A stretch of DNA of 64,000 nt from Sphingomonas jaspsi DSM 18422 (GTDB taxonomy: Bacteria; Pseudomonadota; Alphaproteobacteria; Sphingomonadales; Sphingomonadaceae), in assembly GCF_000585415.1 (NCBI RefSeq), contig NZ_KK073876.1:2415810-2479809 (forward strand), given 5' to 3'. Position numbers and translations under genes: made by a program. Each line of letters opens with the position of its first letter. Position 1 is the first letter of the stretch. The notes beneath the pieces are model-generated. The model was not told the DNA's origin, did no database searches, and worked only from the letters and a program-made list of their open reading frames with translations. Positions 8,444 to 27,463 of the stretch are shown here, piece by piece.

Positions 8444-8886
8444 AGGGCCACCCCCGCGGCGCGAAGGATCGCGACGGTCGCAATGCCGGATGCCATGAAG
8501 GTCGCCGTCGCGACCAGCGAGCGCTGCGACAGTCGGCTGACGCCGCACACGCCATGACCACTGGTGCACCCGCTGCCGAGCCTAGTGCCGAAGCCGACCA
8601 GCAGGCCGGCGACGATCACCGCCGGAAGCGGCACATAATCGAGGGGCCCGACCTTGCCACCAAGCAATGCAGCCACCAGCGCGCCGACGGGAAGTCCTAC
8701 CAGGAACATCCAGGCGCTGGAGCGCGACATGGTGCCGCCGCCGAGCCCAAGCCCGCGCGCGGCAATGCCGGAGACGCCCGCGATCCGGCCCGCACCGAGC
8801 AGCATGATCGCCCCGGCCAAACCGATCAGGACGCCGCCGACCAACCCGCCCAGCTGATCGGCCATCGGGAACCATGGAAGACTCAC
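8440..8886 (-). CDS. YeeE/YedE family transporter subunit
   Basis: A 148-residue membrane protein with the family motif [18 protein letters not shown]; its cysteines line the sulfur-relay path in characterised thiosulfate importers of this family. It is the first half of the split transporter whose second half follows directly. The GTG at 8886 overlaps the dioxygenase stop as GTGA; an internal ATG at 8865 (MADQLGG) is the alternative start. Confidence 0.88.
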
Positions 8887-9812
8887 AGCGCGTTCACCGG
8901 AATCTTGATGTAGCTCACCCCATTGTCCTCGGGGTCCGGAAGCCGCCCGCCGCGAATGTTGAGCTGCACCGACGGCATGATCAGCGCTGGCATCGACAAT
9001 GTCTTGTCGCGCGCCGTCCGCATCGCCACGAAGTCGTCTTCGCTGACGCCGTCATGGACATGGACGTTGCCGTCGCGCTGCAGGCCGACGGTGCTTTCCC
9101 AGGCATAATCGTCCCGGCCCGGCGCCTTGTAGTCGTGGCACATGAACAGCCGCGTTTCGCGCGGAAGATCGAGCAGTCGGCGGATCGATTGATAAAGCTC
9201 GCGCGCGCAGCCGCCCGGGAAATCGGTGCGGGCGGTGCCGTAATCGGGCATGAACATCGTATCGCCGACGAAGGCGGCGTCGCCGACGACATAGGCCATG
9301 TCGGCCGGCGTATGGCCCGGCACATGCAACGCCACCGCTTCAAGCGTGCCGATCCGGAAACGCTCCCCGTCGGCGAACAGATGGTCGAACTGCGATCCGT
9401 CGCGCTGGAAATCGGTCCCGGCGTTGAACACCTTCCCGAATACCTCCTGCACCCGGACGATATCCTTGCCGATGGCCAACTTCCCGCCCAGCTTCTCCTG
9501 CAGGTAAGGCGCTGCCGAAATATGGTCGGCATGGGCATGGGTCTCGATCACCCAAGCGACCTTCAGGCCCTTGGTCGTGACATAATCGACGATAAGGTCG
9601 GCGGAGCGGAAACCGGTGCGGCCCGACGCCTGGTCGTAATCGAGCACCGAATCAATAATGGCGGCTTCGCCCGTCGCCGCGTCATGGACGACGTAGCTCA
9701 CCGTATAAGTCGCCTCGTCGAAGAAACCGGCGATGGTCGGACGATTCGCCGGATCGGCAATCGCGGCTTCGACGACCGCTGTTGCGCCGTCGAGCGCAAG
9801 GTCGGCGGACAT
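8883..9812 (-). CDS. Persulfide dioxygenase-like metallo-beta-lactamase fold protein
   Basis: A 309-residue MBL-fold enzyme with the iron/zinc motif THAHADH, then [22 protein letters not shown] and a C-terminal MCHDYKAPG. These are the features of ETHE1/Blh-type persulfide dioxygenases, which oxidise glutathione persulfide to sulfite. The start at 9812 has a clear AAGGAG eight to nine bases upstream; the longer frame is not supported. It is the first gene of a five-gene coupled operon, with transporters for sulfur compounds and an exporter likely for the sulfite product. No BigR/SqrR-type regulator gene is present in the window. Confidence 0.9.
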
Positions 9813-9925
9813 GGCTACTCTCCTTAGGTCCCGGCTCACGGCCTTCGATTGATTGACATATAGGACGGGGCGTCCCCGCACGAAAGGCTGCCCCGCAAGC
9901 CGGCATCCATTAACGGCGGACCGGT

Positions 9926-9977: not shown

Positions 9978-11396
9978 ATGTCCCGGCCGACGACGCTGTA
10001 CGAAAAAATCTGGGCCAGCCATCAGGTTGCACCAGTCCATGGCAACGACTGGCTGCTGTACATCGACCGGCACCTGCTCCACGAATTGACCAGCCCGCAG
10101 GCGTTCGACGGCCTTCGCCACGCGGGGCGGACGGTGCGTCGCCCGGAACTGACGCTGGCAGTGCCTGACCACAACGTCCCCACCCTTCATCGATCGCTTG
10201 GCACAGCCGGAATTGCCGATCCGGAAAGCCGCCTGCAAGTCGAGGCGCTTGAGCGCAATTGCGCAGAGTTCGGCATTACGCACATTCCGCTGACCCACCC
10301 TTCTCAGGGGATCGTCCATATCGTCGGGCCCGAGCTGGGCCTCACCCTGCCGGGCATGACCGTGGTATGCGGCGACAGCCATACATCGACCCATGGCGCG
10401 TTCGGCGCGCTGGCTTTCGGCATCGGCACCAGTGAAGTCGAACATGTCCTTGCGACCCAGACGCTGGTCCAGTCCAAGGCCAGAACCATGCGCATCCGTG
10501 TCGACGGCCGGCTTGGTCGCGGCGTCACGCCCAAGGACATCATCCTGGCGATCATCGGCCAAATCGGCACGGCCGGCGCCACCGGTCATGTCATCGAATA
10601 TGCGGGAGAAGCGATCGAGGCGCTGGACATGGCCGGTCGCATGACGATCTGCAACATGTCGATCGAAGCTGGTGCCCGCGCCGGGCTGATTGCGCCCGAT
10701 GAGAAAACGTTCGCCTGGCTCGAAGGCCGTGCACTCGTTCCGCAGGGCGCTGCGTTCGACGCTGCGTGCGGGATGTGGCGGACGCTGCGATCCGACCCCC
10801 AGGCAAGATTCGATCGCGACATTTCGATCGACGCGTCATCCATTGCGCCGATGGTCAGCTGGGGCACCAATCCCGAAGCCGTCACCACCGTCGAAGGCCA
10901 TGTTCCCGATCCGGACCGTATCGAGGATGCCTCGCGCCGCGAGCAGGTGGAGCGGATGCTCGCCTACATGGACCTGTCGCCGCGTCAGCCGATCGCCGGG
11001 CTGCCGATCGACCAGGTATTCATCGGCAGCTGCACCAACGCGCGGCTGGAGGACCTGCGCGCTGCCGCGGCCGTCGTCGACGGTGGCCGGGTGGCAGGCC
11101 ACGTCAAGGCGCTGGTGGTGCCGGGTTCGGGCCGGGTCAAGCTGGCCGCCGAAGCCGAAGGCCTGGACCGCATCTTCACCGACGCCGGTTTCGAATGGCG
11201 CGATGCGGGCTGTTCGATGTGCCTTGGCCTCAACGAAGACCGGTTGGCGCCGGGCAAGCGCTGCGCTTCCACCTCCAACCGCAATTTTGAGGGGCGGCAG
11301 GGACCGGGAGGTCGCACGCACCTGATGTCGCCGGCCATGGCGGCAGCAGCGGCCATTGCCGGGCGGATCGTCGATGTCAGGAGCTTCCGGCCATGA
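9978..11396 (+). CDS. leuC: 3-isopropylmalate dehydratase large subunit
   Basis: A 472-residue [4Fe-4S] enzyme that isomerises 2- to 3-isopropylmalate in leucine synthesis. The N-terminus ([12 protein letters not shown]) is standard. Conserved blocks include [24 protein letters not shown], and the cluster cysteines lie in [10 protein letters not shown] and SMCLGLNED. It has the expected length for the family and partners leuD, whose ATG overlaps its stop. leuA and leuB are not in the window. Confidence 0.97.
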
Positions 11397-12031
11397 CGCC
11401 CTTCACGACACTGATCGGGATCGCCGCACCGCTGCCGATCGCCAATGTCGATACCGACCAGATCATTCCGAGCCGCTACCTGAAGGGGGTGACGCGCAAC
11501 GGGCTGGGCGAGGGCCTGCTGGCACCGCTCCGTTACGACGAGGATGGTGCCGAGCGACCCGAGTTCATCCTCAATCGTCCCCCATGGCGAAACGCGAAGA
11601 TTCTTGTCGCCCGCGACAATTTCGGCTGCGGGTCGAGCCGCGAACATGCGCCTTGGGCACTGGCAGGCTTCGGCATCGGCGCGATCCTGGCCCCCAGTTT
11701 CGCCGACATTTTCTACAACAATTCGATCAAGAACGGCCTGTTGCCTGCGATCCTTGAGGCAGAGGCGATCGAACGATTGTTGGCGCTGGTCGCCGACCCG
11801 CAATCCGCGACGCTGAGCGTCGATCTCACGCGGCGCGTCGTCACCGACGTCGCGGGCCGCGAATATCGCTTCGACATTTCCGACGACCGCCGCGATGCCC
11901 TGTTGAGCGGGCTCGACGATATCGGTCGTTCGCTGGCAGCGATCGAGGCCATCGACACGTTCGAACGGCGGCACCTGGCGCAGGTGCCGCCTATCCCGTC
12001 CTGGCCCGAACTAGAAAGCCGTCTGGGCTAG
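11393..12031 (+). CDS. leuD: 3-isopropylmalate dehydratase small subunit
   Basis: A 212-residue swivel-domain subunit that completes the isopropylmalate isomerase. Signature motifs are [14 protein letters not shown] and the active-site [16 protein letters not shown]. The start overlaps the leuC stop as ATGA, implying coupled translation. Its stop overlaps by three bases the stop of the convergent TonB-dependent receptor gene, so no room for a separate terminator exists. Confidence 0.97.
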
Positions 12032-14598
12032 AACTTCACCCCGACTTCTACCCCGACCTGCCGCCGCGTGCCCGGCGACAGGAAGGATCCGCCGAATTCG
12101 ATCGCCGGGATGACTTCGGCAAGCCACTTCTTGTCGAGCGCATTGTCGGCGAAGGCGGTCACGCTCCAGCGGTCGGTTTCCAGTCCCAGCCGCAAGTTGA
12201 GGACCCCGAACTTGTCGCGCCGGTTGACGTCATATTTGGCGTTACCGACGAACGCCGGAAGCCCCAGCGCGCTGATCGGCAACAGGGCCGAGAACAGCGT
12301 GGGCCGCTCGTCGCCCTGGACCGTGTGGAACCAGGTCGGGCCGGTGATACGATAATCGGCCCGGGCGACGAGGTTGGCGAAGCTGCCCAGCCGCTGCGTC
12401 AACTGCGTCCCGAGGTTGATCGTGTAATCGGCGGTGTAGGGCGACTTGTTGCCGACCGTGTAGGGACGCGAACGGTTCTTCTTGATCTCGCTGTCGGTGA
12501 CGTTGACCGATCCGAAGATGCTCCAGCCCGGCAGCGGCTTGGCGTTGAGGTTCAGTTCCACCCCCTTAACGTCGACCCGGTCGATGTTCGACACGACGCG
12601 CAGAAGGCCGAAGCTGCCGACGAAGAATTCGAAGAACTGCATGTCGGTGATGCGGGTGTAATAGCCGGCAAGGTCGTAGGTCAGCTTGCCGTTCAGGAAG
12701 CTGCCCTTGATGCCTGCTTCAAACGCGCTCGACCGTTCCTTGCGGAACTGGTCGTCGATCGACACGACATCCCCCGCCGTCGGGCCCAGCGCATTGTTGT
12801 TGAAGTTGGCGTCGATGATTGCCGAGGAGCCACTGTTGTTGAACCCGCCCGATTTGAAGCCGATGCCCCAGTTGGCATAGATGTTGGTCGTGCTGTTGGG
12901 GCGGAAACTGACGTTGATCTTGGGCTCCAGCTGACGGAACGTCTTTTTCTGGTCGGGGATCGCGCCGCTGACCTGCCCGGGATTGAGCGGGCCGCCAAGG
13001 ATCGGGTCGGTGACCAGCGGTACCCGGTTCGACACCTGGCGCGCTTCGATGTCGTAGCGCAGCGCAAGCCCGAGCTTGAATTGGTCGCTGGGCTTCCAGT
13101 CGACCGATCCGAAACCGGCGTAGACGTTGGTCGTGAAGCGATCGGCGAACAGCTGGCTGGTGGGATTGGAGGTCGAGGGATCATTGTACAGGTTCCTGAT
13201 CACCCCTGACCCCAGATCCGCGCCGAGCGACACGGCGACCAGCCGGTTGATGTGCAGATAGTATGCGCCCAGCTGCCATTGGACCGGCGACGCCGTATCC
13301 GACGCCAGTCGCACTTCCGCGCTCCAGTCGGTCTGGTTGCGGACCTGATACTGGGTGCCGTCGCACGTGGTCGGGGAATAGGGTCCGAAGGTCGATCCGT
13401 TGGCTGGCGCGAAGATGAAGGGCACCGGGATTTGCCCGATGAACCCGGGCTGGTTGACCGGGAATCCGGTCAGTGCCGCCGTCGATGCGAAGCAGGCGTT
13501 GGACACGGCGGTGTTAGTCGGGTTGGCGGGGACACCCAACGCAGGGGCGATATAGCGCGCGAAGTCGGCCGACGTACCGTCTGCGACCAAATTCTGTTTC
13601 ACATTCGAATAGAGCGCCCAGGCGGTCAGCTTGGTGGCGCCGAAATCATGTTCCAGCTTGGCCGACGCTTCGTACGTCTTCTGGTCGTTGGTCGGCCTGA
13701 TGTTGCTGTAGAAGTTGAACGGATGGTCGTTGACGTCTTCGTAGAAGGCCGGATTGACCGCCGCGAAGTTAGGCAGGTGGAAGGCGGCGTTGAAGGCAAT
13801 CGACGCACCGTCGAAGCGGGCGAAACGGGCCTTGAAGTCCAGTTCCGTATTGGGTCCGGCCTGCACCACCAGCCGCCCGTCGATGCCGTAGATCTTGCTG
13901 TCGTCGACGCAGTGACAATCGAGGAAGAAGTTGCGGTAGAAGCCATCGCTTTTCTTGTAATTGGCCGAAATGACGATGCCGGCATCGTTGCTGATCGGCC
14001 CTGCCGCATAGCCGCGCAGCGCCCATGTGCCCTGCTCGGCGAACGTGCCCGTGACTGCGCCGGTCATACGGTCGCCGGGCTTGATGGTGCTGAGCACGAT
14101 CGCGCCGGCAGCCGCGTTGCGACCGTAAAGCGCGCCCTGCGGCCCTTTCAGGATTTCGACCTGGCGAAGCGTTCCCTGCACTTCGTTGAGCTGGGCCGTG
14201 TTGGTCTTGAGGATGCCGTCGACGACAAGCGCGACCGAACTTTCCGCGTCGCGCGCGCCGTTGATGCCGCGAATGTTGATCTGGGTGTCGCCACTTTCCG
14301 CCGTCCCGGTGACGATGGTCACGCCCGGGGTCAGCGCGACGAAATTTTCGGCCTTCACCACGCCGGTCTTGGCCAGCGTGTCGGCCGACAGCACCGTCAC
14401 CGATGCCGGAACGTCAAGCAACCGTTCGTTCTGGCGACGCGCCGTCACGATGATGTCGGCAGGCGATTCGTCGGCCGGCGGCTGGGCTGCCGGTGCCGGT
14501 TCGGAAGGCGCGGCGTCCTGCGCGAAGGCCGGCGTTGCAACGATTGCGATCCCTGCGCAGCCCGCGATCAGGCCCGCCCGTCTTGCCACCCTGTTCAT
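12028..14598 (-). CDS. TonB-dependent outer-membrane receptor
   Basis: An 856-residue receptor: signal peptide ending TPAFAQ, a proline/alanine linker, the TonB-box region (DIIVTARRQNERLLDVP), a plug domain with LVVDGI and GPQGALYGRNAAAGAI, then a long beta-barrel ending VGVEVGVKF. The start at 14598 has a GGAGGA immediately upstream. This is the sphingomonad type of receptor that often takes up the substrate degraded by the adjacent genes. It is the last gene of the operon racemase-like, NTF2, NTF2, receptor, and presumably imports the compound handled by the GntR-controlled cluster. A Cys-His-Cys triplet (LDCHCVDD) in the barrel is a curiosity. Confidence 0.93.
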   Translation of the reverse strand: MNRVARRAGLIAGCAGIAIVATPAFAQDAAPSEPAPAAQPPADESPADIIVTARRQNERLLDVPASVTVLSADTLAKTGVVKAENFVALTPGVTIVTGTAESGDTQINIRGINGARDAESSVALVVDGILKTNTAQLNEVQGTLRQVEILKGPQGALYGRNAAAGAIVLSTIKPGDRMTGAVTGTFAEQGTWALRGYAAGPISNDAGIVISANYKKSDGFYRNFFLDCHCVDDSKIYGIDGRLVVQAGPNTELDFKARFARFDGASIAFNAAFHLPNFAAVNPAFYEDVNDHPFNFYSNIRPTNDQKTYEASAKLEHDFGATKLTAWALYSNVKQNLVADGTSADFARYIAPALGVPANPTNTAVSNACFASTAALTGFPVNQPGFIGQIPVPFIFAPANGSTFGPYSPTTCDGTQYQVRNQTDWSAEVRLASDTASPVQWQLGAYYLHINRLVAVSLGADLGSGVIRNLYNDPSTSNPTSQLFADRFTTNVYAGFGSVDWKPSDQFKLGLALRYDIEARQVSNRVPLVTDPILGGPLNPGQVSGAIPDQKKTFRQLEPKINVSFRPNSTTNIYANWGIGFKSGGFNNSGSSAIIDANFNNNALGPTAGDVVSIDDQFRKERSSAFEAGIKGSFLNGKLTYDLAGYYTRITDMQFFEFFVGSFGLLRVVSNIDRVDVKGVELNLNAKPLPGWSIFGSVNVTDSEIKKNRSRPYTVGNKSPYTADYTINLGTQLTQRLGSFANLVARADYRITGPTWFHTVQGDERPTLFSALLPISALGLPAFVGNAKYDVNRRDKFGVLNLRLGLETDRWSVTAFADNALDKKWLAEVIPAIEFGGSFLSPGTRRQVGVEVGVKF

Positions 14599-14633
14599 TC
14601 CTCCAGCCCTCCTGAAACGGCGGGTGCCCTGCC

Positions 14634-15032
14634 TCAGACCAGCACGTTGGCCCCGCTCATGTAGACGTAAACCTCTTGGAAGCGGCCCTCGCGGATCCGC
14701 CAGAAATTGGTGTTGAACAGGCGCGTGACGCTGCCGTCCGCTGCGGTCAGCACGGCTTCGAAGCAGGCCGATATCCGGCCATTCGCCTCGTCTACCGTGC
14801 AAGTGAAATCCTTGTGGACGATGGTGTCGTAGGCGCCGAAGAAATCGACGAACATGCGCCGGATGGCATCCTTGCCGGCATGCCGCGTGAAGCTGGACTG
14901 GACGCAGAACAAGGCTTCGTCGTTGAAGCAGGCCAGCGTCTCGTCGAGCCGCTTGGCATCGACATTGCCGAAATAGGTCTTGGTCGCCAGCTCGACCAGC
15001 TCGTCGCGGGACAAAGTGGGCTCATACTGCAT
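14634..15032 (-). CDS. NTF2-like (SnoaL/ketosteroid isomerase fold) protein A
   Basis: A 132-residue single-domain protein of the NTF2 superfamily. The helix ELATKTYFGNVDAKRLDETLACF is followed by the strands that form the cone-shaped pocket, ending FQEVYVYMSGANVLV. It is a clear paralogue of the next upstream gene, with which it shares the pattern YFG-VD, L-CF and VYVYMSG-N. Its ATG overlaps the stop of that gene as TGATG. In such clusters these proteins act as isomerases, dehydratases or cyclases on the pathway intermediate, possibly as a heteromer. The reaction cannot be read from the sequence. Confidence 0.82.
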   Translation of the reverse strand: MQYEPTLSRDELVELATKTYFGNVDAKRLDETLACFNDEALFCVQSSFTRHAGKDAIRRMFVDFFGAYDTIVHKDFTCTVDEANGRISACFEAVLTAADGSVTRLFNTNFWRIREGRFQEVYVYMSGANVLV

Positions 15033-15463
15033 CAGGCGTCTCCCGGCTGCAGCAGGTTGGTCCCGCTCATGTAGACGTAGACCCGGTGGAACAGCCGGTC
15101 CTTCAGGTAGAAACGATTGCAGTTTTCATAGCGCAGCTCGCTTCCGCCCTGCGGCGTGATCAGCACCGTGAATTGCGAATTGATACTGTTTGTCGCCGGG
15201 TCGCCGGTATGGACGAAATTGCCGTGCCAAATGTCGCTGAAGTCGGTGAAGAGCTTCCGGAACATGGCGGCAATGCCCTCGTCACGGCCCTGGTGGACGG
15301 TCATCGACGTCACTTCGGTCAACGTTGCGTCGGGAGTGAAGCAGTTGAGGACCTGGGTCAGGTTCTTGTTGTCGACGCCGTCGAAGTAGCGCTTGGTGAC
15401 GATGTCGACATAGAAGGGATAGGGCAGCGGCGTTTGACCCGGCCCGGCTTCGTTCCAGCTCAT
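15032..15463 (-). CDS. NTF2-like (SnoaL/ketosteroid isomerase fold) protein B
   Basis: A 143-residue paralogue of the adjacent NTF2-fold protein (YPFYVDIVTKRYFDGVDNKNLTQVL... VYVYMSGTNLL). The start at 15463 has CAGGAGAGG upstream and overlaps the racemase-family stop as ATGA. Tandem NTF2 proteins may form a mixed oligomer in which one chain is catalytic and the other structural. It belongs to the four-gene operon that ends in the TonB receptor. Confidence 0.82.
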   Translation of the reverse strand: MSWNEAGPGQTPLPYPFYVDIVTKRYFDGVDNKNLTQVLNCFTPDATLTEVTSMTVHQGRDEGIAAMFRKLFTDFSDIWHGNFVHTGDPATNSINSQFTVLITPQGGSELRYENCNRFYLKDRLFHRVYVYMSGTNLLQPGDA

Positions 15464-16203
15464 GCCCAACCTCTCCTGATATCCGCATCCTTGCCCACTT
15501 CGGGCGAAGGAAAGGCTTTCTTGCTGTGGGTGAGGCCAAGCCCGATCAGAAGCTCGAGCTGCTTGTAGGCAACCTGGCCCGGGTTGATCACCGGCACGCT
15601 GAGTTCGCGGGACAGATAGGCCGCGGACTGGTGCATGGTCGTGGACCCGAGCACGATGACGTCCGCGCCGTCTTCGGCAATCGCCGCTTCGGCCTCGGCC
15701 TTCAGCTTGGCGAAAATGACTTCTTCCTTGCCTGCCAGCAGCTCGGTGACGTCGGGCCGCGTCTTGATAGAGCGCAGCGAAGCGACACGGTCCCACCAGC
15801 CATAATCGGTCAGCGTCTTTTCGTAGAGCGGGAACCATTCGTCCCACATGGTCAGCACGGTGAAGTGCTTGCCCAGCATCATCGCCGTCGCGAACGCAGC
15901 CTCGCCCGGGCCGACCACCGGAATGGACAGGCGGGAACGCAGGGCGCGCAGCCCGCTGTCGCTGACCGTATCGATCAGCACGCCGGCATAGCCTTCCTCT
16001 TCCGCCGAGATGCCGGCCTGGAACACACTCCATTCCATCAGCAGCATGTCATGGTAGCTGTCGCCGAGCGCCGCCCCCCATTTGATCGCAGCGAATTCGG
16101 GCTGAAAACCGGGCGCGACGAAATCGGCCGGAAGCTGGGCAGCGCGATTGGCGACGCCCGCGTCGTCCATCGGGATGGGGACGATCACCTTGATGCGCTT
16201 CAT
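15460..16203 (-). CDS. Asp/Glu/hydantoin racemase superfamily protein lacking cysteines
   Basis: A 247-residue protein with the fold pattern of the Asp/Glu/hydantoin racemase family: N-terminal IKVIVPIPMDD, the GVLIDTVSDSGLRALR block and the VIVLGSTTMHQSAAYL block, then VPVINPG. In true two-cysteine racemases both blocks carry a catalytic Cys (as in D-C-F-G-D-P-G and G-C-A-G-M). Here they read IDTVSDSG and LGSTTMH, and the entire protein contains no cysteine. Classical racemisation or Cys-dependent maleate isomerisation is therefore unlikely. It starts at MKRIKVI; the upstream ATG at 16248 lies inside the operator region. First gene of the receptor operon. Confidence 0.8.
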   Translation of the reverse strand: MKRIKVIVPIPMDDAGVANRAAQLPADFVAPGFQPEFAAIKWGAALGDSYHDMLLMEWSVFQAGISAEEEGYAGVLIDTVSDSGLRALRSRLSIPVVGPGEAAFATAMMLGKHFTVLTMWDEWFPLYEKTLTDYGWWDRVASLRSIKTRPDVTELLAGKEEVIFAKLKAEAEAAIAEDGADVIVLGSTTMHQSAAYLSRELSVPVINPGQVAYKQLELLIGLGLTHSKKAFPSPEVGKDADIRRGWA

Positions 16204-16238
16204 GCCGGTCGCGAAGCCCCTTTCGATTCGACGGTGTA

Positions 16239-16248
16239 ATGTATACAA
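16239..16248. promoter_or_regulatory. Probable GntR operator 1 (TGTATACAAA)
   Basis: TGTATACAAA contains the GTATAC core and is identical over ten bases to the second site at 17632-17641. It lies in the 87-base region between the divergent racemase-family and gntR starts, so it could repress both directions. Confidence 0.65.
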
Positions 16249-16290
16249 AACGATAGCGTCAAGGCAGTTGCCGATGATGGGGAAGTCGCT

Positions 16291-16959
16291 ATGGACAGGG
16301 GCATGTCACGCGCATCCGACCGGGCCTATTCCGAAATCCGCAGCCTGATCCTGTCGGGTGACGTTCCGCCCGGTGCTCCGCTTCGCGAAGAACAGCTGGC
16401 GGAACTTTGCGGCGTGTCGCGAACACCTGTCCGCGACGCGCTCCGGCGCCTGGAGGCTGAACTTTATGTCGTGCGCAGCGAGAGCCAGCGCACATTCGTT
16501 GCCGAATGGAGCCGGGAAGACGTCAACGAGATGTTCGCGTTGCGGGCGATGCTGGAAGCCCATGCCGCCCGCCGCGCCGCGGAACGCATGGACCCGGACC
16601 ACCTCGCCGCGCTCGAGCGGTGTCACCGGGAAATGGAGAAGGCGGTCTTCCAACGCGTGCCGGACGTCGTAGCTTTCCTCGACCGAAACCGTGACTTCCA
16701 TGCCGCGATTATCGAAACCGCCAGTTCGCCGCGCCTAACGGCAACGCTGGCGACCCTTGTCGAACAGCCGATCGTTCGGCGCACCGCAATGCATTATGGC
16801 CGCGAGCAGCTGGAGCAATCGGTCAACGAACATCGCGAACTGCTTCGCGCCTTCACCGCCCGCGACGGCGAATGGGCGCATGCGGTGATGACCGGTCACA
16901 TCCGCCGCGCTTTCCACGCCTTTACCGCGAGTTGGGATCAGGTCAGCGAAGCGAAATAG
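16291..16959 (+). CDS. GntR-family (FadR/FCD) transcriptional regulator of the catabolic cluster
   Basis: A 222-residue regulator with an N-terminal winged helix (EIRSLILSGDVPPGAPLREEQLAE, then GVSRTPVRDALRRLE) and a C-terminal all-helical FCD ligand-binding domain with the metal/ligand residues DRNRDFHAAI and VNEHRELL. FCD regulators usually repress catabolic genes until they bind the substrate or an acyl/organic-acid intermediate. It sits in the middle of the cluster, divergent from the racemase-family gene. Identical GTATAC-core sites occur upstream of both operons. Its 3' end overlaps the convergent isochorismatase gene by 22 bases. ATG at 16303 is an alternative start. Confidence 0.92.
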   Translation: MDRGMSRASDRAYSEIRSLILSGDVPPGAPLREEQLAELCGVSRTPVRDALRRLEAELYVVRSESQRTFVAEWSREDVNEMFALRAMLEAHAARRAAERMDPDHLAALERCHREMEKAVFQRVPDVVAFLDRNRDFHAAIIETASSPRLTATLATLVEQPIVRRTAMHYGREQLEQSVNEHRELLRAFTARDGEWAHAVMTGHIRRAFHAFTASWDQVSEAK

Positions 16960-17582
16960 TCGCGCATTTGCGCCGCGGTCACGATGTCCGCATATTTGGC
17001 ACCGAGGTCGAACAGATTGGCCTCGTGAATGCGTTCGTCACGATCGCCGCATGCATCGCGCACGACCAACGGCGCAAAGCCGTGGCACAGCGCGTCGAGC
17101 GCGCTGGCCCGCACGCAACCCGACGTCGTAAGGCCTGTGACCACAACCGTGTCGACGCCCATGGCATGAAGTCGATCGGCCAGGTCGGTCCCGAAAAATG
17201 CGCTGGGGAATTGCTTGGTGACGACGATGTCGCCGTCCATCGGCGCCAGTTCCTCGGTGAAGTTGCCGAGCGGATTGCCGACCTCCCAGCAGGCCAGTCC
17301 GGCAATCTTCTGGCGAAACAGGCGTGCCGGCTCGGCCTGGCGATCGCGCGGATATTCAACCCGCGTGAAGACCAGCGGGATGCCGTGTGCGCGGGCGTCG
17401 TCGGCAAGCCGCGCCGCTTCGGCGCGAGCCGATTCCACCGGCGCGCGAAGCGGCGACCCGTCCTCGAAATAACCGCGAGCAAAATCGACCAAGAGAAGGG
17501 CCGGGCGGCGCCCCCAGGGCAGGCTGCCGCCGAAACCGCTGGCGGCGTAGTCGCTGTCGATGTCGTCGCCGTGCGCGCTCAT
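16938..17582 (-). CDS. Isochorismatase-superfamily amidohydrolase (N-carbamoylsarcosine amidase-like)
   Basis: A 214-residue cysteine hydrolase with the catalytic triad of the family: Asp in LLLVDFARGYFEDGSPL, Lys in VVTKQFPSAFFGT and Cys in LTTSGCVRASALDA. The N-terminal pattern is closest to N-carbamoylsarcosine amidohydrolase and maleamate amidohydrolase types rather than to true isochorismatases. In this context it could hydrolyse an N-carbamoyl or amide product generated by the HyuA/HyuB enzyme. It is divergent from the HMG-CoA lyase gene and shares its operator region. Confidence 0.82.
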   Translation of the reverse strand: MSAHGDDIDSDYAASGFGGSLPWGRRPALLLVDFARGYFEDGSPLRAPVESARAEAARLADDARAHGIPLVFTRVEYPRDRQAEPARLFRQKIAGLACWEVGNPLGNFTEELAPMDGDIVVTKQFPSAFFGTDLADRLHAMGVDTVVVTGLTTSGCVRASALDALCHGFAPLVVRDACGDRDERIHEANLFDLGAKYADIVTAAQMRDYFASLT

Positions 17583-17629
17583 CCGTCCTGCCTGATGATT
17601 TCCCGGGCGCTATACAAGCCCCATCCGCA

Positions 17630-17641
17630 TTTGTATACAAA
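17630..17641. promoter_or_regulatory. GntR operator 2, perfect palindrome TTTGTATACAAA
   Basis: A 12-bp perfect palindrome ends five bases before the ATG of the HMG-CoA lyase gene and lies 48 bases upstream of the divergent amidohydrolase start. A degenerate copy, TATACAAG, occurs at 17611-17618. Its TATACA could double as the -10 of the lyase operon. Confidence 0.75.
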
Positions 17642-17645
17642 CCGC

Positions 17646-18590
17646 ATGAATCGTTCGATCGAGATCGTCGAGGTATCGCCGCGCGACGGGCTGCAGAACG
17701 AAAAGGTCGCCCTTTCAACCACCGACAAGCTGGCGCTGATCGACCGGCTGATCGCCGTCGGTGCGAAGCGGATCGAAGTGGCCAGCTTCGTCAATCCCCG
17801 CCGTGTCCCACAGATGGCCGATGCGGAAGCGGTTATAGCGGGACTGCCGTCGGCGCCCGGCGTCACCTTCATCGGCCTGACCCTCAATGAACGGGGCGTC
17901 GACCGGGCCGCGGCGGCGAATGCCGCGTCCCCGCGCGGCCTTGACCAGGTAGGCTGCGTCCTGGTGGCAACCGACAGCTTCGGCATCGCCAACCAGGGCC
18001 AGACGGTTGCCGAAGGACTCGCCGCCAACCGCGCAATGATCGCCGCGGCGACCGCCGCCGGCATGTCGGCGCAAGTGACGATCTCGGGGAGCTTCGGTTG
18101 CCCGTTCGAAGGCGAAGTCGCGGAAGATCACGTCCTCGGCCTGGCGGAAGAGATGGCCGCGGCGGGCGCCGTCGAGATCGCCTTTGCCGACACCATCGGC
18201 GTTGCCGTGCCCGCGCAAGTGGGAAGCATGATCGCAGAAGCGCGCAAGCGGCTGGGCGACCGGTTTCCGATCCGCGTCCACCTCCACGACACGCGCGGGA
18301 TGGCACCGGCCAACGCCTGGGCTGCCTGGCAGGAAGGTTGCCCAACGTTCGACAGCGCGCTCGGCGGCCTCGGCGGCTGTCCCTTCGCGCCCAATTCGGC
18401 CGGCAACCTGGCGACGGAAGAGCTGATCTATCTGTTCAAGCGGACCGGGATCGACACCGGTCTCGACCTCGACAAGGCAGTATCCGCCAACCGCTGGCTG
18501 TCCGAACGGATGGGCAAACCCCTGCCCAGCCGGGTCGGCCGCGCTGGCGACTTCATCCCCCAACCGCAATCACGGCAGGAGTGCGCATGA
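17646..18590 (+). CDS. Hydroxymethylglutaryl-CoA lyase family protein
   Basis: A 314-residue TIM-barrel lyase of the HMGL-like family, which cleaves HMG-CoA to acetyl-CoA and acetoacetate or related 3-hydroxyacyl-CoAs. The N-terminal VEVSPRDGLQNE supplies the catalytic Arg-Asp pair, VHLHDTRGM the metal-binding histidines, and GGLGGCPFAPNSAGN the active-site Cys loop. The start MNRSIEI follows the operator so closely that no Shine-Dalgarno sequence is present, which suggests a leaderless or nearly leaderless mRNA. It is the first gene of the operon with hyuA, hyuB and the CoA-transferase. Confidence 0.92.
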   Translation: MNRSIEIVEVSPRDGLQNEKVALSTTDKLALIDRLIAVGAKRIEVASFVNPRRVPQMADAEAVIAGLPSAPGVTFIGLTLNERGVDRAAAANAASPRGLDQVGCVLVATDSFGIANQGQTVAEGLAANRAMIAAATAAGMSAQVTISGSFGCPFEGEVAEDHVLGLAEEMAAAGAVEIAFADTIGVAVPAQVGSMIAEARKRLGDRFPIRVHLHDTRGMAPANAWAAWQEGCPTFDSALGGLGGCPFAPNSAGNLATEELIYLFKRTGIDTGLDLDKAVSANRWLSERMGKPLPSRVGRAGDFIPQPQSRQECA

Positions 18591-20629
18591 GTTATCGTCT
18601 GGGCGTCGACGTCGGAGGCACCTTCACCGACCTGCTCGTGATCGACGAGGCGAGCGGGCGCACATGGCGCGACAAGGTGCCGTCGACCCCTCACGACCCC
18701 TCGGAGGCGGTCGTCGCCGGAACCAAGGCGGTCTGCGCCAAGGCCGGGGTGGACCCAAAATCGCTCGCGCTTTTCCTGCATGGCACCACGGTCGCGACCA
18801 ACGCGGTGCTGGAGCTGAAGATCGCCAAGGTTGGGCTGATTGTCACAGAGGGCTATCGCCACATCTTGCAGATCGCGCGAAGCCTCGTGCCCGGCGGGCT
18901 TGCCGCGTGGATCGTGTGGCCGAAGCCCGAGCCGATGGCCCCGCTGGAAGCGACGATCGAGGCTCATGAACGCATCGGGGCGGATGGTGCAATCGTTCGT
19001 GCGCTCGACGAGACGGCGCTGCGGCAGAGTCTGAAGCGTCTAGCAGATGAGAAGGTCGAGGCGGTGACCGTCTGCCTGATCAATAGCTATCTCAACGACG
19101 CGCACGAGCGGCGCGTCGCCGAAATCGTCGCCGAGGAGATGCCGGGTATTCCGGTCAGCGTTTCGGCCGACATCCTGCCGGAAATGCAGGAATATGAGCG
19201 GGCGCTGACTACCGTTGCCAACAGCGCGGTAAGGCCGACCGTCTCGCGCTATGTCGGCAACCTCGAAAACGAACTGCGCAATCTGGGCAGCGAGGCCAAG
19301 CTGAGCCTGCTCCGCTCCGACGGCGGCCTGATGAGCGCCGAAAAGAGCCGCACCGCGCCGGTCAATTTGTTGATGAGCGGGCCGGCGGGCGGTGTCGCGG
19401 GCGCCGTGTTCGTTGCCAAGAGTGCGGGCATCCCCAACGTCCTGACGCTCGACATGGGTGGCACCTCGACCGACGTCGCGCTGATCGAAAATTACCAGCC
19501 GCGCCTCCGCCGAGAGACCAGCGTTGCGCACCTTACGGTTCGCGCATCGTCGCTGGACGTGAAGACGGTCGGGGCCGGCGGCGGTTCGATCGCATCGGTC
19601 CCCGAACTGACGAAGGCGCTGCGAGTCGGTCCGCAATCGGCGGGCGCGGTGCCGGGCCCTGCGGCCTATGGCCGCGGCGGCGAAGAGCCGACGGTGACCG
19701 ACGCCAACGTTGTCCTCGGCTACCTCCCCGAAAACCTGCTCGGCGGCAGCTTCCGGCTTGACCGGGAAGCATCCAAGCGCGCGGTGCAGAAGGTCGCCGA
19801 CGCGCTGGGCCTGTCGCTGATGGACGCGGCTGCCGGGATCATTTCGATCGTCAACGAAACCATGTTCGGCGCCCTGCGGCTGGTGTCGGTCCAGCAGGGC
19901 TACGACCCGCGCGATTTCGCGCTGATGGCGTTCGGCGGGGCCGGGCCGCTTCATGGCAATGCCATGGGCATTCTGATGGGCAGCTGGCCGGTGATCATTC
20001 CGCCCTCTCCCGGCGTGCTCTGCGCCTATGGCGACGCGACCACGCGCCTGCGCGTCGATGCGCAGCGCAGCTTCAACAAGCTAGTCCCGCAAACCAGCGA
20101 CGCGGAAGTGCAGGCGGTGATCGACGAGATCATCGGCCAGGTGACGGCCGAACTGGAAGCGGAAGGCGTTCCGGGCGCGGAACAGGAACATCGTGTCGAA
20201 ATCGACGTGCGATATTCGGGCCAGGCGTTCGAGGTGCCGCTGACCCTTCCGACCGGCGGCACCGTCGCCGACCTTGTCGGCCGCTTCAACGCGGAGCACC
20301 TGCGGCTGTTCACCTTCAACCTGCCGGTACCGCAGGAACTGGTGAATATTCGAGTCGTCGCGCTCGGCAAGGCGGCCAACGTCAGCGCCGAAACCATCGA
20401 GAAGGGCAGCGGCGATCCGTCAGCCGCAAAGCTTTACGACCACAAGCTGTATATGGACGGGCGGGAGCAGGACGCCGTGATCTACGACCGCGCCAAGCTT
20501 CGCTCGGGCGACGTGGTGCGCGGACCTGCGATCATCACGGAGATGGATTCGACCACGCTGGTCCACAGCGGCCACGCGGCCAAGGTCGACGATTACGGCA
20601 ACATCCTCATCAACCCGGAGGCACGCTGA
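18587..20629 (+). CDS. Hydantoinase/oxoprolinase family protein, HyuA subunit
   Basis: A 680-residue ATP-dependent subunit with the two actin-like phosphate-binding motifs GVDVGGTFTDLLV near the start and LTLDMGGTSTDVAL in the centre, plus HGTTVATNAVLE and VGAGGGSIA. The family includes N-methylhydantoinase, 5-oxoprolinase and the acetone/acetophenone carboxylases; all use ATP to activate an amide or a ketone. ATGA overlap with the lyase gene and TGATG overlap with hyuB imply stoichiometric synthesis. The substrate class (cyclic imide versus ketone carboxylation) cannot be decided from the sequence. Confidence 0.9.
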   Translation: MSYRLGVDVGGTFTDLLVIDEASGRTWRDKVPSTPHDPSEAVVAGTKAVCAKAGVDPKSLALFLHGTTVATNAVLELKIAKVGLIVTEGYRHILQIARSLVPGGLAAWIVWPKPEPMAPLEATIEAHERIGADGAIVRALDETALRQSLKRLADEKVEAVTVCLINSYLNDAHERRVAEIVAEEMPGIPVSVSADILPEMQEYERALTTVANSAVRPTVSRYVGNLENELRNLGSEAKLSLLRSDGGLMSAEKSRTAPVNLLMSGPAGGVAGAVFVAKSAGIPNVLTLDMGGTSTDVALIENYQPRLRRETSVAHLTVRASSLDVKTVGAGGGSIASVPELTKALRVGPQSAGAVPGPAAYGRGGEEPTVTDANVVLGYLPENLLGGSFRLDREASKRAVQKVADALGLSLMDAAAGIISIVNETMFGALRLVSVQQGYDPRDFALMAFGGAGPLHGNAMGILMGSWPVIIPPSPGVLCAYGDATTRLRVDAQRSFNKLVPQTSDAEVQAVIDEIIGQVTAELEAEGVPGAEQEHRVEIDVRYSGQAFEVPLTLPTGGTVADLVGRFNAEHLRLFTFNLPVPQELVNIRVVALGKAANVSAETIEKGSGDPSAAKLYDHKLYMDGREQDAVIYDRAKLRSGDVVRGPAIITEMDSTTLVHSGHAAKVDDYGNILINPEAR

Positions 20630-22509
20630 TGCCCGCGCGGATCATCCAGACCAACGAAACGCCGTTCGCCAAGGTCAGCATCGACCCGGTGACGCTGGAC
20701 ATCATCGAAAATGCGCTGCGCAATGCGCGCATCGAAATGGACGCAACGCTGGTGCGCACTGCCATGTCGCCTGGCATCCGCGAACAGGGCGACGCCTTCC
20801 CGCTGATCGCCGACCCCGCAGGCAAGATGATCGTCGGCCAGTTCGGCAGCTTCATCGACGGCTTCTTGCGCGGCTTCGACGGGACGATCGAGGAAGGCGA
20901 CATGATCTTCCTCAGCGACCCCTATAGCTGCGAAGGGGCGATCAGCCATTCGAACGACTGGCTGGTGCTGTTGCCGGTGTTCCGCGGTGGGCGCCTCGTC
21001 GCCTGGACCGCGATGTTCGGGCACCAGAGCGACATCGGCGGCAAGGTCGCCGGGTCGATGCCGATCGACGCCCGCGCCATCTTCGAGGAAGGCGTGCGCA
21101 TTCCGCCGGTCAAGATCTACGCCAAGGGCGTCTATAACGAAGATCTGATCAAGCTGGTGATGCACCAGACGCGCAAGCCCGACTGGTGCGCGGCGGATTT
21201 GAACGCGCTGATCGCCTCCTGCCGCGTCGCTGCGCGCCGGGTTGACGAAATGTGCGCCCGCTTCGGCGAGGACATCTATATCGCCGCGACGCAGGCCCTG
21301 CTCGACCGCAATTACCGTGCGATGAAGGCGTTGATCGAAAGTTCGGTCAGCACTGACCCGGTCAGCTTCGAGGATTATGTCTGCGACGACGGGGTCGGAT
21401 ACGGCCCCTACAAGATCGCCTGCACGATGCACCGCGAGGGATCGAAAGTGGTGCTCGATTTCACCGGTACCGACCCGCAATCAGCCGCGTCGATCAACTT
21501 CTATCTCAACGAAAACATGTTCAAGATGTTCTTCGGCATCTACATGATCATGGTCTTCGATCCGCAGATCATGTTCAACGATGGCTTCTACGACCTCATC
21601 GAAGTCCGCATTCCCGAAGGCTCGCTGCTGAAACCGCGATATCCGGCCGCGCTGTCGGGCCGAACCCACGCCCTAGGCCGCATCTTCGACATTCTGGGCG
21701 GCCTGCTCGGCCAGCGCACCCCCGAGTTCCTCTGCGCGGCCGGCTTCAGTTCCTCGCCCCACCTCATGTATTCGGGCCGCGACAAGAAGGGCGACTGGTT
21801 CCAGCTGTTCCAGATCGGGTTCGGCGGCATTCCCGGGAAACCGTTTGGCGACGGCCCCGACGGCCATTCGCTGTGGCCGGGCTTTACAAACGTCCCCAAC
21901 GAATTCCTTGAGCGCTATTTCCCTCTGCGGATCGAGCGATACGAGGCGCTGGCCGACAGCGGCGGTGCGGGCAAGTTCCGCGGCGGCAACGGCATCCTGA
22001 TGAGCTACCGCTTCCTCGCCAGCGGCACCGTATCGATCCACGACGACCGCTGGTTCACCTACCCTTGGGGCGTCAACGGCGGCTTGCCCGGCCAGCGCGC
22101 GCGCAAGGTGCTGGAGAAGGTCGACGGCACGCAGACGGTCGTCCCGAACAAGCAGGACAGCCTCGACGTCGAGGAAGGCGATATCCTCCACTTCATCACG
22201 TGGGGCGGCGGCGGCTGGGGCGATCCGCTGGAGCGCGATCCGGCGCTGGTTGCCAAGGAAATCCGGCAGGGGCTGGTCAGCTCGGACGGGGCCCGCCTGT
22301 ACGGCGTGGTGGCCGATGCGGAAGGCAATCTCGACACGGCGGCAACCGACGCGCTGCGCGCCAAGATGCGCACCGAAGGTGGCCGCAACGAGCTGTTCGA
22401 TCGCGGCGGGACGATCGAGGAATTACGCGCCCGTTGCCTCGAAGAAACCGGCCTTCCCGCCCCCAAACCGCCAGTTTGGCACCATGTCGAAGACGTGGCG
22501 GCGGAATGA
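20629..22509 (+). CDS. Hydantoinase/oxoprolinase family protein, HyuB subunit
   Basis: A 626-residue partner of HyuA. It opens with DPVTLDIIENALRNARIEMDATLVRTAMSP, the usual HyuB start, followed by the conserved FPLIAD and DPYSCEGAISHSNDW blocks, and ends with the GGGGWGDPLERDP motif found near the C-terminus of the family. Together with HyuA it forms the ATP-dependent hydrolase or carboxylase of the cluster. It is somewhat long for a HyuB chain. Its stop overlaps the CoA-transferase start as ATGA. Confidence 0.9.
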   Translation: MPARIIQTNETPFAKVSIDPVTLDIIENALRNARIEMDATLVRTAMSPGIREQGDAFPLIADPAGKMIVGQFGSFIDGFLRGFDGTIEEGDMIFLSDPYSCEGAISHSNDWLVLLPVFRGGRLVAWTAMFGHQSDIGGKVAGSMPIDARAIFEEGVRIPPVKIYAKGVYNEDLIKLVMHQTRKPDWCAADLNALIASCRVAARRVDEMCARFGEDIYIAATQALLDRNYRAMKALIESSVSTDPVSFEDYVCDDGVGYGPYKIACTMHREGSKVVLDFTGTDPQSAASINFYLNENMFKMFFGIYMIMVFDPQIMFNDGFYDLIEVRIPEGSLLKPRYPAALSGRTHALGRIFDILGGLLGQRTPEFLCAAGFSSSPHLMYSGRDKKGDWFQLFQIGFGGIPGKPFGDGPDGHSLWPGFTNVPNEFLERYFPLRIERYEALADSGGAGKFRGGNGILMSYRFLASGTVSIHDDRWFTYPWGVNGGLPGQRARKVLEKVDGTQTVVPNKQDSLDVEEGDILHFITWGGGGWGDPLERDPALVAKEIRQGLVSSDGARLYGVVADAEGNLDTAATDALRAKMRTEGGRNELFDRGGTIEELRARCLEETGLPAPKPPVWHHVEDVAAE

Positions 22510-23720
22510 CCCTGGCATCCGAAAACCGCGGCCCGTTGGCCGACATTCGTGTGGTCGAAATGGGTCAGCTCATTGCCGGCCCCTTCTGCGGCCAATTGCT
22601 CGGCGACATGGGCGCGGAAGTCATCAAGATCGAACCGCCCGCCGGCCCCAATGGCAAGGGCGGCGACCCGATGCGCGATTGGGGCCGCGGCGACTATCCG
22701 CTGTGGTGGGAAGTGGTCGCGCGCAACAAGAAGAGCGTCAGCGCCAACCTGCGCGATCCCGAAGGCCAGGCGCTGGCGCGGAAGCTGATCGGGACAGCCG
22801 ACATATTGATCGAAAATTTCCGGCCCGGGACGCTGGAGAAATGGAATCTCGCGCCGGCCGACTTGATGGCCGAAAATCCCGGCCTGATCGTCGTTCGCGT
22901 GTCCGGCTACGGTCAGGATGGCCCCTATTCCGACCGCGCCGGGTTCGGCGGGATCGGTGAAGCCATGGGCGGCTGGCGCGCTATCGTCGGCGATCCCGAC
23001 CGCCCGCCAAGCCGCATGGGCGTTTCCATCGGCGACAGCCTTGCCGCCACCTACGGATGCATGGGTGCGCTCGCCGCCCTCCACCATCGCGACCGGACCG
23101 GCGAAGGCCAGATCGTCGACAGTGCGCTTTATGAAGCGGTGTTGCAGGTGATGGAAAGCCTCGTCCCCGAATATGTCGCGTCGGGCTACGTCCGCCAACG
23201 GTCGGGCAGCAAGCTGCCGGGCATCGCGCCGTCGAACGTCTACCGCTGCAAGGACGGCGAACTTCTGATCGGCGCCAACCAGGACAGCGTCTTTGCCCGG
23301 CTGTGCGAAGCGATGGGCGAGCCCGAGCTGGCGCAGGATCCGCGCTACGTCGACCACCTGTCGCGCGGCCGCAACCAGGACGAACTGGATGCCCGGATCG
23401 AGGATTGGACCAAGTCCCTGACGGTCGCCGAGGTGGAAGAATTGATGACCCGCCACGCCATTCCCGCCGGCCGGATATATACGCCGGCCGACATGCTGGC
23501 CGATCCGCATTTTGCCGCGCGGGACGCCATCATCGATGTGCCCCACCCCCGTTGGTCGGGCCTGAAGATGCAAAACGCCTTCCCGAAACTGTCCCGCACG
23601 CCGGGCGGCGTTCGCCGAATCGCACCGCAGGAAATCGGGCAGGACAATGCGGAAGTCTACGGGTCGATCGGGCTTGGCCCCGACGAGCTAGACAGCCTGC
23701 ACGCGCGCGCTGTCATCTGA
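22506..23720 (+). CDS. Family III (CaiB/BaiF) CoA-transferase
   Basis: A 404-residue class III CoA-transferase. The N-terminal VVEMGQLIAGPFCGQLLGDMGAEVIKIE and the catalytic-Asp region GEGQIVDSALYEAVL are diagnostic. Characterised relatives transfer CoA between dicarboxylic acids such as succinate, glutarate, mesaconate and 3-hydroxy-3-methylglutarate. Combined with the HMGL-type lyase at the head of the operon, it suggests activation of a hydroxylated di-acid followed by retro-aldol cleavage. It is the last gene of the operon; rlmJ converges 44 bases further on. Confidence 0.92.
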   Translation: MTLASENRGPLADIRVVEMGQLIAGPFCGQLLGDMGAEVIKIEPPAGPNGKGGDPMRDWGRGDYPLWWEVVARNKKSVSANLRDPEGQALARKLIGTADILIENFRPGTLEKWNLAPADLMAENPGLIVVRVSGYGQDGPYSDRAGFGGIGEAMGGWRAIVGDPDRPPSRMGVSIGDSLAATYGCMGALAALHHRDRTGEGQIVDSALYEAVLQVMESLVPEYVASGYVRQRSGSKLPGIAPSNVYRCKDGELLIGANQDSVFARLCEAMGEPELAQDPRYVDHLSRGRNQDELDARIEDWTKSLTVAEVEELMTRHAIPAGRIYTPADMLADPHFAARDAIIDVPHPRWSGLKMQNAFPKLSRTPGGVRRIAPQEIGQDNAEVYGSIGLGPDELDSLHARAVI

Positions 23721-27340: not shown

Positions 27341-27409
27341 GATGTTCCCCTTCGTCTTGATTGACGGGGGTAAAGATGCCGTTGGGGAGCGCCCCGAACA
27401 TCGGCGCGA

Positions 27410-27463
27410 TTCCCTATTTTGCATTTCGACCTTCCCTATTTTTCACGGCTGTTTTTCCCTATT
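27410..27463. promoter_or_regulatory. Three phased direct repeats TTCCCTATT (AATAGGGAA on the minus strand)
   Basis: Identical 9-mers start at 27410, 27432 and 27455, spaced 22 and 23 bases, about two helical turns each. They lie 70-123 bases upstream of the diiron start and end nine bases before the LuxR-family start. This geometry fits an activator binding as a multimer on one face of the helix. Confidence 0.65.

Follow-up and report, generated by a model that had tools for sequence, protein, structure and literature searches.

Within a 64,000-nucleotide stretch of the Sphingomonas jaspsi DSM 18422 genome (contig NZ_KK073876.1, positions 2,415,810 to 2,479,809; hereafter the window), genes for a TonB-dependent receptor, two NTF2-fold proteins (NTF2a and NTF2b), a racemase-fold protein, an FCD-type GntR regulator, an isochorismatase-family hydrolase, a 3-hydroxy-3-methylglutaryl-CoA (HMG-CoA) lyase-family protein (HMGL), HyuA, HyuB and a CaiB-family CoA-transferase form a cluster. 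Conservation of this gene set and of two operators gives good support to a real, conserved and jointly switched regulon, predicted to serve the catabolism of a single compound. We read it as a GntR-controlled catabolic route for a substituted five-membered cyclic imide (maleimide or succinimide type) or a close cyclic amide, and put the probability of this reading at about 0.45. If right, aquatic sphingomonads share the pathway with rhizobia and other proteobacteria, where it takes other forms.

Conservation of the gene set and its operators

A scan of a species-genome collection identified 53 loci encoding relatives of the racemase-fold protein, mostly in Sphingomonadales; Erythrobacter dokdonensis DSW-74, Erythrobacter sanguineus DSM 11032 and Blastomonas aquatica CGMCC 1.12851 are among the hosts of the cluster. 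Forty-six are of the sphingomonad type (at least 75% identity), and 33 of these hold at least 8.7 kb of upstream and 3.7 kb of downstream sequence. Scoring a gene as present when tblastn matched it at 40% identity or more at any point of the stretch, we found the racemase-fold protein, NTF2b, receptor, GntR, HyuA, HyuB and CaiB in all 33 loci, NTF2a and HMGL in 32, and the isochorismatase homologue in 31. Gene order is variable: CaiB is sometimes divergent, the isochorismatase gene changes place, and the NTF2 genes of L050 and L051 are 8-10 kb distant. Clustering the neighbours of all 53 loci revealed no further widely shared gene; the largest group comprised 9 loci, some apparently antisense. 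An initial annotation, made by a model from the letters of the window, had named these gene families and proposed a co-regulated catabolic cluster for one compound. Pfam agrees with the families as named, and the presence of the set in 31-33 of 33 loci, mostly with the operator, supports the predicted cluster.

Operator 1, AATGTATACAAA (16238-16249), is placed between the divergent racemase-fold gene and gntR. Operator 2, TTTGTATACAAA (17630-17641), is a perfect palindrome, as had been noted; it occupies the gap from which the isochorismatase and HMGL genes diverge, 4 bp ahead of the ATG of HMGL. Both contain the 10-mer TGTATACAAA on the + strand, at 16240-16249 and 17632-17641, and its reverse arm also falls within TTTGTATACAAA at 17630-17639. 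The initial annotation had described these two identical sites, placing the first one base too early (16239-16248). Its picture of two operons and gntR joined by shared sites holds as far as the sites go; the isochorismatase gene, which diverges from HMGL, adds a third transcription unit.

The 10-mer appeared in none of 100 shuffles of the window, and the exact 9-mer TTGTATACA is confined to the two operators in the 2,548,011-base genome (control, 0). At up to 2 mismatches the 12-mer gave 2 sites in the window, a count matched by 2 of 100 shuffles and thus no enrichment, and genome-wide the signal was gone (7 places vs. 6 for the reversed control). Because the two-mismatch counts are not significant alone, the case for the operators rests on exact matches together with conservation. 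Sequence for 130 bp ahead of the racemase-fold gene is available in 45 of 46 sphingomonad-type loci, and 32 of the 45 have an operator site with at most 2 mismatches in that interval; the GTATAC core is retained in 9 of the other 13, and 4 show no trace there. Another site was present between 130 bp and 3.5 kb upstream in 36 of the 39 loci having 3.5 kb upstream, and the remainder of the sphingomonad-type loci contained 2 operator matches in 641,861 bp. The regulator, in which Pfam identifies both GntR and FCD domains, probably acts through the palindromic sites, as a predicted repressor. The operator was not found in the clusters of genomes G671 and G483 (L079, L083, L081), each of which carries a gene read as PrpR-like (the one in G671 reaches 449 bits against a PrpR model cutoff of 499).

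Table 1. Features of the cluster (window coordinates)
Feature	Position	Strand	Basis
LeuC-type aconitase-family large subunit	9978-11396	+	TIGR00170, 737.5 bits (cutoff 560)
LeuD-type small subunit	11393-12031	+	TIGR00171, 216.4 bits (cutoff 116)
TonB-dependent receptor, proposed importer	12028-14598	-	Pfam Plug, TonB_dep_Rec_b-barrel
NTF2b, SnoaL/NTF2-fold protein	14634-15032	-	Pfam SnoaL_2
NTF2a, SnoaL/NTF2-fold paralogue of NTF2b	15032-15463	-	Pfam SnoaL_2; aligned with NTF2b
Cys-free Asp/Glu/hydantoin-racemase-fold protein	15460-16203	-	Pfam PF01177
Operator 1, AATGTATACAAA	16238-16249	.	between racemase-fold gene and gntR
FCD-type GntR regulator	16291-16959	+	Pfam GntR and FCD
Isochorismatase-family hydrolase	16938-17582	-	PF00857
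Operator 2, TTTGTATACAAA	17630-17641	.	between isochorismatase and HMGL genes
HMG-CoA-lyase-family lyase (HMGL)	17646-18590	+	NF004283, 289 bits (cutoff 246)
HyuA, ATP-dependent hydrolase subunit	18587-20629	+	Pfam; CapA model 524 bits vs. ApcC 305
HyuB, metal-site subunit	20629-22509	+	PF02538; CapB model 209 bits vs. ApcD 125
CaiB-family (class III) CoA-transferase	22506-23720	+	PF02515

Elsewhere in the window, an AurF-type (p-aminobenzoate N-oxygenase-like) protein is encoded at 26435-27424 on the - strand (Pfam 38 bits, cutoff 30). On the upstream side of leuC lie genes for a FadL/Toluene_X-type outer-membrane protein (5166-6431, +), a TauE/SafE exporter (6807-7514, -) and a metallo-beta-lactamase-fold protein (8883-9881, -), which possibly serve sulfur metabolism.

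A predicted route for a cyclic imide

The proposed pathway would run in seven steps. The receptor would import the substrate (step 1), and the racemase-fold protein with the NTF2 pair would rearrange its ring (step 2, the least certain). HyuAB would then open the ring in an ATP-dependent reaction to give a half-amide (step 3), from which the isochorismatase-family hydrolase would free ammonia, leaving a substituted maleate (step 4). Hydration by LeuCD would yield an alkylmalate (step 5); after CoA transfer by CaiB (step 6), the HMGL-family lyase would perform a retro-aldol cleavage to an acyl-CoA and a 2-oxo acid (step 7). Since the window's cluster has no identified oxidoreductase, the substrate should already have the right oxidation level, fitting a maleimide-type imide. 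The combination of alkylmalate, CoA-transferase and HMGL-family lyase parallels EC 2.8.3.20 and 4.1.3.46 as presented in passages of PMC8307300. Chemistry, step order and repression are predicted from enzyme families and context, and the class of chemistry is moderately supported. Imides were among several substrate options in the initial annotation; the present analysis keeps them and narrows the range to a cyclic imide or amide. We could not find this gene combination, or the route, described in the openly licensed literature; related parts are known.

The racemase-fold protein has the Asp/Glu racemase fold and, as had been claimed, no cysteine (0 counted). T79 and S187 align to both cysteine positions of allantoin racemase (3qvj) and are invariant (26 of 26), leaving the protein without the two catalytic cysteines of the two-cysteine racemases in the Asp/Glu racemase superfamily. 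NTF2b is modelled by AlphaFold with a predicted local distance difference test score of 96.7 and has a fold like limonene-epoxide hydrolase or ketosteroid isomerase. The isochorismatase-family hydrolase retains Asp, Lys and Cys motifs, which we take to be its triad, and is the proposed half-amide amidohydrolase.

Part of this evidence also suits a ureide route resembling that for creatinine or N-methylhydantoin, in which ring opening by HyuAB would turn a hydantoin into an N-carbamoyl acid, the carbamoyl group would be released as CO2 and ammonia by the isochorismatase homologue, and the remaining enzymes would handle the residue. The best solved match of HyuA is N-methylhydantoinase (461 bits), that of the isochorismatase homologue is N-carbamoylsarcosine amidohydrolase (131 bits), in line with its earlier label as carbamoylsarcosine-amidase-like, the nearest relatives of the racemase-fold protein are allantoin/hydantoin racemases, and a rhizobial PuuE-like protein (see below) is nearest to an allantoinase. 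We nevertheless consider the ureide route unlikely, as it leaves LeuCD, CaiB and HMGL or the isocitrate-lyase-family lyase of related loci unexplained, and no amine-metabolising enzyme is present among the cluster genes, the rest of the genome not having been searched for one.

HyuA carries the ATP motifs DVGGTFTD, DMGGT and GAVPGP, and HyuB the motifs HSND and GHQSD; they resemble the ATP motifs and the HxxD and His motif described for caprolactamase in parts of PMC8453981. Homology and motifs are likewise common to HyuAB and the carboxylases, and a ketone route can be drawn in which HyuAB, acting like acetone/acetophenone carboxylase, would form a keto acid that is CoA-activated by CaiB and then cleaved. 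This is very unlikely: only two subunits are encoded and the amide hydrolase would be left without a role. HyuAB was rejected as a ketone carboxylase because carboxylase models score well below caprolactamase models and because PuuE/imidase-type hydrolases fill the HyuAB slot in related loci.

For CaiB, the best NCBIfam models are succinate-glutarate and succinyl-CoA:mesaconate CoA-transferase, the nearest dicarboxylate CoA-transferase models, both under their cutoffs, and the best solved match is an unassigned CaiB/BaiF protein (233 bits). HMGL passes its subfamily cutoff and has the motifs PRDGLQNE, HLHDTRG and GGLGGCP, which are presumably catalytic. LeuCD and isocitrate-lyase-family lyases act on malate-type (2-hydroxysuccinate) acids in the families known, which speaks against a route from a six-membered glutarimide to 3-hydroxy-3-methylglutarate, with CaiB acting like succinate-hydroxymethylglutarate CoA-transferase and HMGL as a true HMG-CoA lyase. 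We regard that route as quite improbable, although a solved succinate-hydroxymethylglutarate CoA-transferase ranks fourth among the CaiB matches (178 bits), HMGL exceeds the HMG-CoA-lyase subfamily cutoff, and passages of PMC9304392 have HxnM opening a glutarimide.

leuCD and the apparent replacement families

The initial annotation had drawn the cluster from 12028 to 23720. This is too narrow, as leuCD (9978-12031) probably belongs to the pathway, and with leuCD taking part the pathway is probably wider than first drawn. The LeuC-type protein, a proposed hydro-lyase of the substituted maleate, has the motifs GSCTN and CSMC, to which we ascribe an Fe-S role. There are two leuC copies above the family cutoff in the window genome, the second in a leu operon with leuB and leuA (leuA 571 bits, cutoff 599). 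In a congener with the same gene order as the window cluster (G208), the cluster copy is the only LeuC at E <= 1e-60; leuB was not found (best 23.6 bits, cutoff 353), nor was leuA, whose single match (46 bits) is the cluster HMGL. The cluster LeuCD of G208 is therefore without the LeuA and LeuB with which it would work in leucine biosynthesis. None of 12 further congeners without a racemase-fold match has leuC at E <= 1e-60, and leuC is present in 14 of 14 tested genomes with the racemase-fold gene, the cluster itself being viewed in seven. Among 14 tested congeners, 13 have no leuB above cutoff and no leuA (the lone match in G208 being HMGL), with lower-scoring leuB-like genes (202 and 155 bits) in two of them; leucine auxotrophy is thus suggested for them, whereas the window strain has its leu operon.

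In L081 and L083 (G671/G483; same phylum, other classes), leuD and leuC form one same-strand run with the isochorismatase, HyuB and HyuA genes. The G671 cluster resembles a Rhodanobacteraceae locus (L057; RND 84%), whose run extends past genes for a DUF1302 protein and an RND-type transporter and takes in HMGL, CaiB, NTF2 and the racemase-fold gene. When 32 LeuC sequences are placed in a tree, its deep forks being weakly supported, the window cluster copy and that of G208 form one pair (100/99), the window biosynthetic copy groups with other sphingomonads, and the rhizobial, G671 and G483 copies are placed elsewhere. Seven Erythrobacter-type loci (L034, L042, L044-L047, L052) have presumed biosynthetic leuCD about 7-9 kb from the racemase-fold gene; these were rejected as pathway copies, as they group with sole, presumed biosynthetic LeuC copies.

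Distant racemase-fold homologues (45-53% identity; the best 6 of 194 plasmid records) stand beside other enzyme families. Neorhizobium petrolearium encodes MmgE/PrpD, an isocitrate-lyase-family lyase, HyuB, HyuA, an isochorismatase homologue, a FAD_binding_2 protein and two racemase-fold proteins, together with a protein whose tautomerase and DUF4440 matches are both below cutoff. For Rhizobium rhizoryzae and Neorhizobium sp. SOG26, genes were called in this analysis, with Pfam on the Rhizobium proteins: an isochorismatase homologue, two polysaccharide-deacetylase-family proteins, LeuC, LeuD and an ABC transporter are followed by the lyase, FAD_binding_2, two racemase-fold proteins and then a MmgE/PrpD match. 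Tistrella mobilis has MmgE/PrpD, lyase, tautomerase, FAD and two racemase-fold genes and a second MmgE/PrpD, and Variovorax has a cysteine hydrolase, two polysaccharide-deacetylase-family proteins, ABC genes and one racemase-fold gene plus a weaker second. The lyase is nearest to methylisocitrate lyase (192 bits), with 2,3-dimethylmalate lyase also matched (174 bits), and the nearest relative of the first Rhizobium deacetylase-family protein is PuuE allantoinase.

As alternative families occupy these places in relatives, PuuE-like proteins look like replacements for HyuAB, and the lyase for CaiB plus HMGL. Stand-in families were thus found directly, like the co-conservation, operators and enzyme families, for steps 3 and 6-7 and perhaps for step 5, where LeuCD and MmgE/PrpD are no clean replacement because two rhizobial loci (L125, L127) carry both. 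A phosphoenolpyruvate-mutase-like gene of Variovorax (L126), which has no KRCGH motif, was not counted as a lyase. The sub-cutoff Neorhizobium protein (L128:10126-10617) is related to one in Tistrella (L129:10111-10602) that passes the tautomerase cutoff, and both adjoin the racemase-fold gene. Taking DUF4440 to be NTF2-like, we suggest that these tautomerase-type proteins might stand in for the separate NTF2 proteins. In passages of PMC9304392, HxnM of the fungal nicotinate route, kin to PuuE/deacetylase-type proteins, acts as a cyclic imidase ahead of an amidase, and part of PMC12290011 identifies one MmgE/PrpD protein as a methylsuccinate isomerase.

Several observations weigh against the imide reading, which depends on predicted activities for every protein. 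The MmgE/PrpD gene carried along with LeuCD in L125 and L127 has 31-34% identity, making the step-5 replacement weak, and the nearest PDB entry for the Neorhizobium MmgE/PrpD is iminodisuccinate epimerase, followed by cis-aconitate-decarboxylase-like proteins, not a dehydratase. Neorhizobium HyuA and HyuB share only 37% and 31% identity with those of the window, a Gly takes the place of the catalytic Cys in its isochorismatase homologue, and the rhizobial FAD_binding_2 enzyme and second racemase-fold protein are superfluous to the scheme. LeuC is in view in 7 of 53 loci, in all seven of the presumed biosynthetic type; within Sphingomonadales, pathway-type leuCD beside the cluster was seen only in the window genome and G208, and other hosts would have to borrow biosynthetic LeuCD. 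No operator was found upstream of leuC, and regulon and pathway are therefore not identical. The missing operator at leuC and the seven loci would also suit a real regulon with leuCD as a chance neighbour, the other families then constituting a pathway of different chemistry. We think this improbable, given that G208 keeps leuCD without leuA or leuB and that separate LeuC lineages, albeit with weak deep forks, occur in the rhizobial, the two other-class and the window-type clusters. Finally, among 45 stretches compared (4-31 kb each, two belonging to one cluster), a HyuAB or PuuE-like match is present in 16, and in 17 none of the enzyme partners was seen.

The racemase-fold family is broader than the proposed pathway. 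In L134, L135, L137-L139, L143, L146-L148, L150, L074-L076 and L124, homologues have oxygenases, SDR enzymes and further catabolic genes as neighbours (by annotation in L124, by gene calls in the others), which places the family in other pathways as well; Novosphingobium sp. EMRT-2 lacks all the pathway partners and has oxygenases instead. Genome G058 has the racemase-fold gene, both NTF2 genes and a receptor, with no HyuAB, LeuCD, HMGL or CaiB match in its two adjoining 19.5-kb stretches (L073, L085). No further pathway gene was seen in L084, L086-L089 and L085, and in L140 and L141 gene calling gave no genes, tblastn matches being present.

A candidate substrate and comparison with known systems

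Within the imide reading, the monopyrrolic maleimides or succinimides (methyl ethyl maleimide, hematinic acid) that remain when chlorophyll, bacteriochlorophyll or haem is degraded oxidatively are a specific, quite unlikely substrate, whose mineralisation would be a last stage in the turnover of these pigments. With no redox step needed from the cluster, pyruvate would be formed together with glutaryl-CoA from hematinic acid and with butyryl-CoA from methyl ethyl maleimide; the Cys-free racemase-fold protein would then represent a novel type of cyclic-imide isomerase. Among 296 Sphingomonadales genomes (two draws taken as one set; racemase-fold gene at E <= 1e-100), 26 have the racemase-fold gene, 51 reaction-centre genes and 16 both; reaction-centre genes thus occur in 16/26 genomes with the racemase-fold gene vs. 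35/270 without (Fisher p = 9.8e-8). By genus the comparison is 6/13 vs. 14/66 (p = 0.08), and a seventh genus has both in different genomes. In the window genus, both cluster genomes (window and G208) are phototrophs, and 20 listed others have neither cluster nor reaction-centre genes. The window genome carries two photosynthetic reaction-centre genes outside the window (G000:C1:2235514-2237183), as does G208. Shared ancestry is an alternative explanation of this association, which was drawn from Sphingomonadales only. According to passages of PMC7318184, in vitro oxidation of chlorophyll a gave hematinic acid, and maleimides are cited there from senescent leaves and lake sediments, the same passages reporting none detected in leaves by that study itself. 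The association and this literature make pigment-derived maleimides a candidate substrate, not a result; our searches of the openly licensed literature met no bacterial genes for pigment-maleimide breakdown.

If true, the imide reading would describe a new route from a cyclic imide to central metabolism, assign functions at once to several genes annotated as 'hydantoinase', 'racemase', 'NTF2' or 'second leuCD', and extend a superfamily noted for its catalytic cysteines by a Cys-free branch. Were a chlorophyll-derived maleimide the substrate, what becomes of pigment nitrogen in bacteria could be tested directly.

The predicted enzymes can be compared with several known systems. Like ATP-dependent lactam/imide hydrolases (CapAB, N-methylhydantoinase, 5-oxoprolinase), window HyuA/HyuB have two subunits with ATP and H/D motifs; their scores of 524 and 209 bits lie far below the CapAB equivalog cutoffs (1000 each), and the partners differ. 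Against acetophenone carboxylase they score 305 and 125 bits (cutoffs 1500), and the cluster has one HyuA and one HyuB and lacks the extra subunits. The isochorismatase-family protein shares family and Asp, Lys and Cys motifs with N-carbamoylsarcosine amidohydrolase and other amidohydrolases of its family, whereas the pathway partners differ. Both cysteine positions of allantoin/hydantoin racemase are replaced, by Thr79 and Ser187. Window LeuC and LeuD both exceed the cutoffs for isopropylmalate isomerase LeuCD, yet LeuC is of a lineage separate from sphingomonad biosynthetic LeuC; dimethylmaleate hydratase offers a further comparison. The CoA-transferase/lyase pair is likened by function, not sequence, to succinyl-CoA:(R)-citramalate CoA-transferase and (R)-citramalyl-CoA lyase, the latter HMGL-like in Chloroflexus. 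Fungal HxnM-HxnN, as set out in passages of PMC9304392, differs from the proposed scheme in its ring and downstream steps, but it too opens an imide and then hydrolyses the half-amide.
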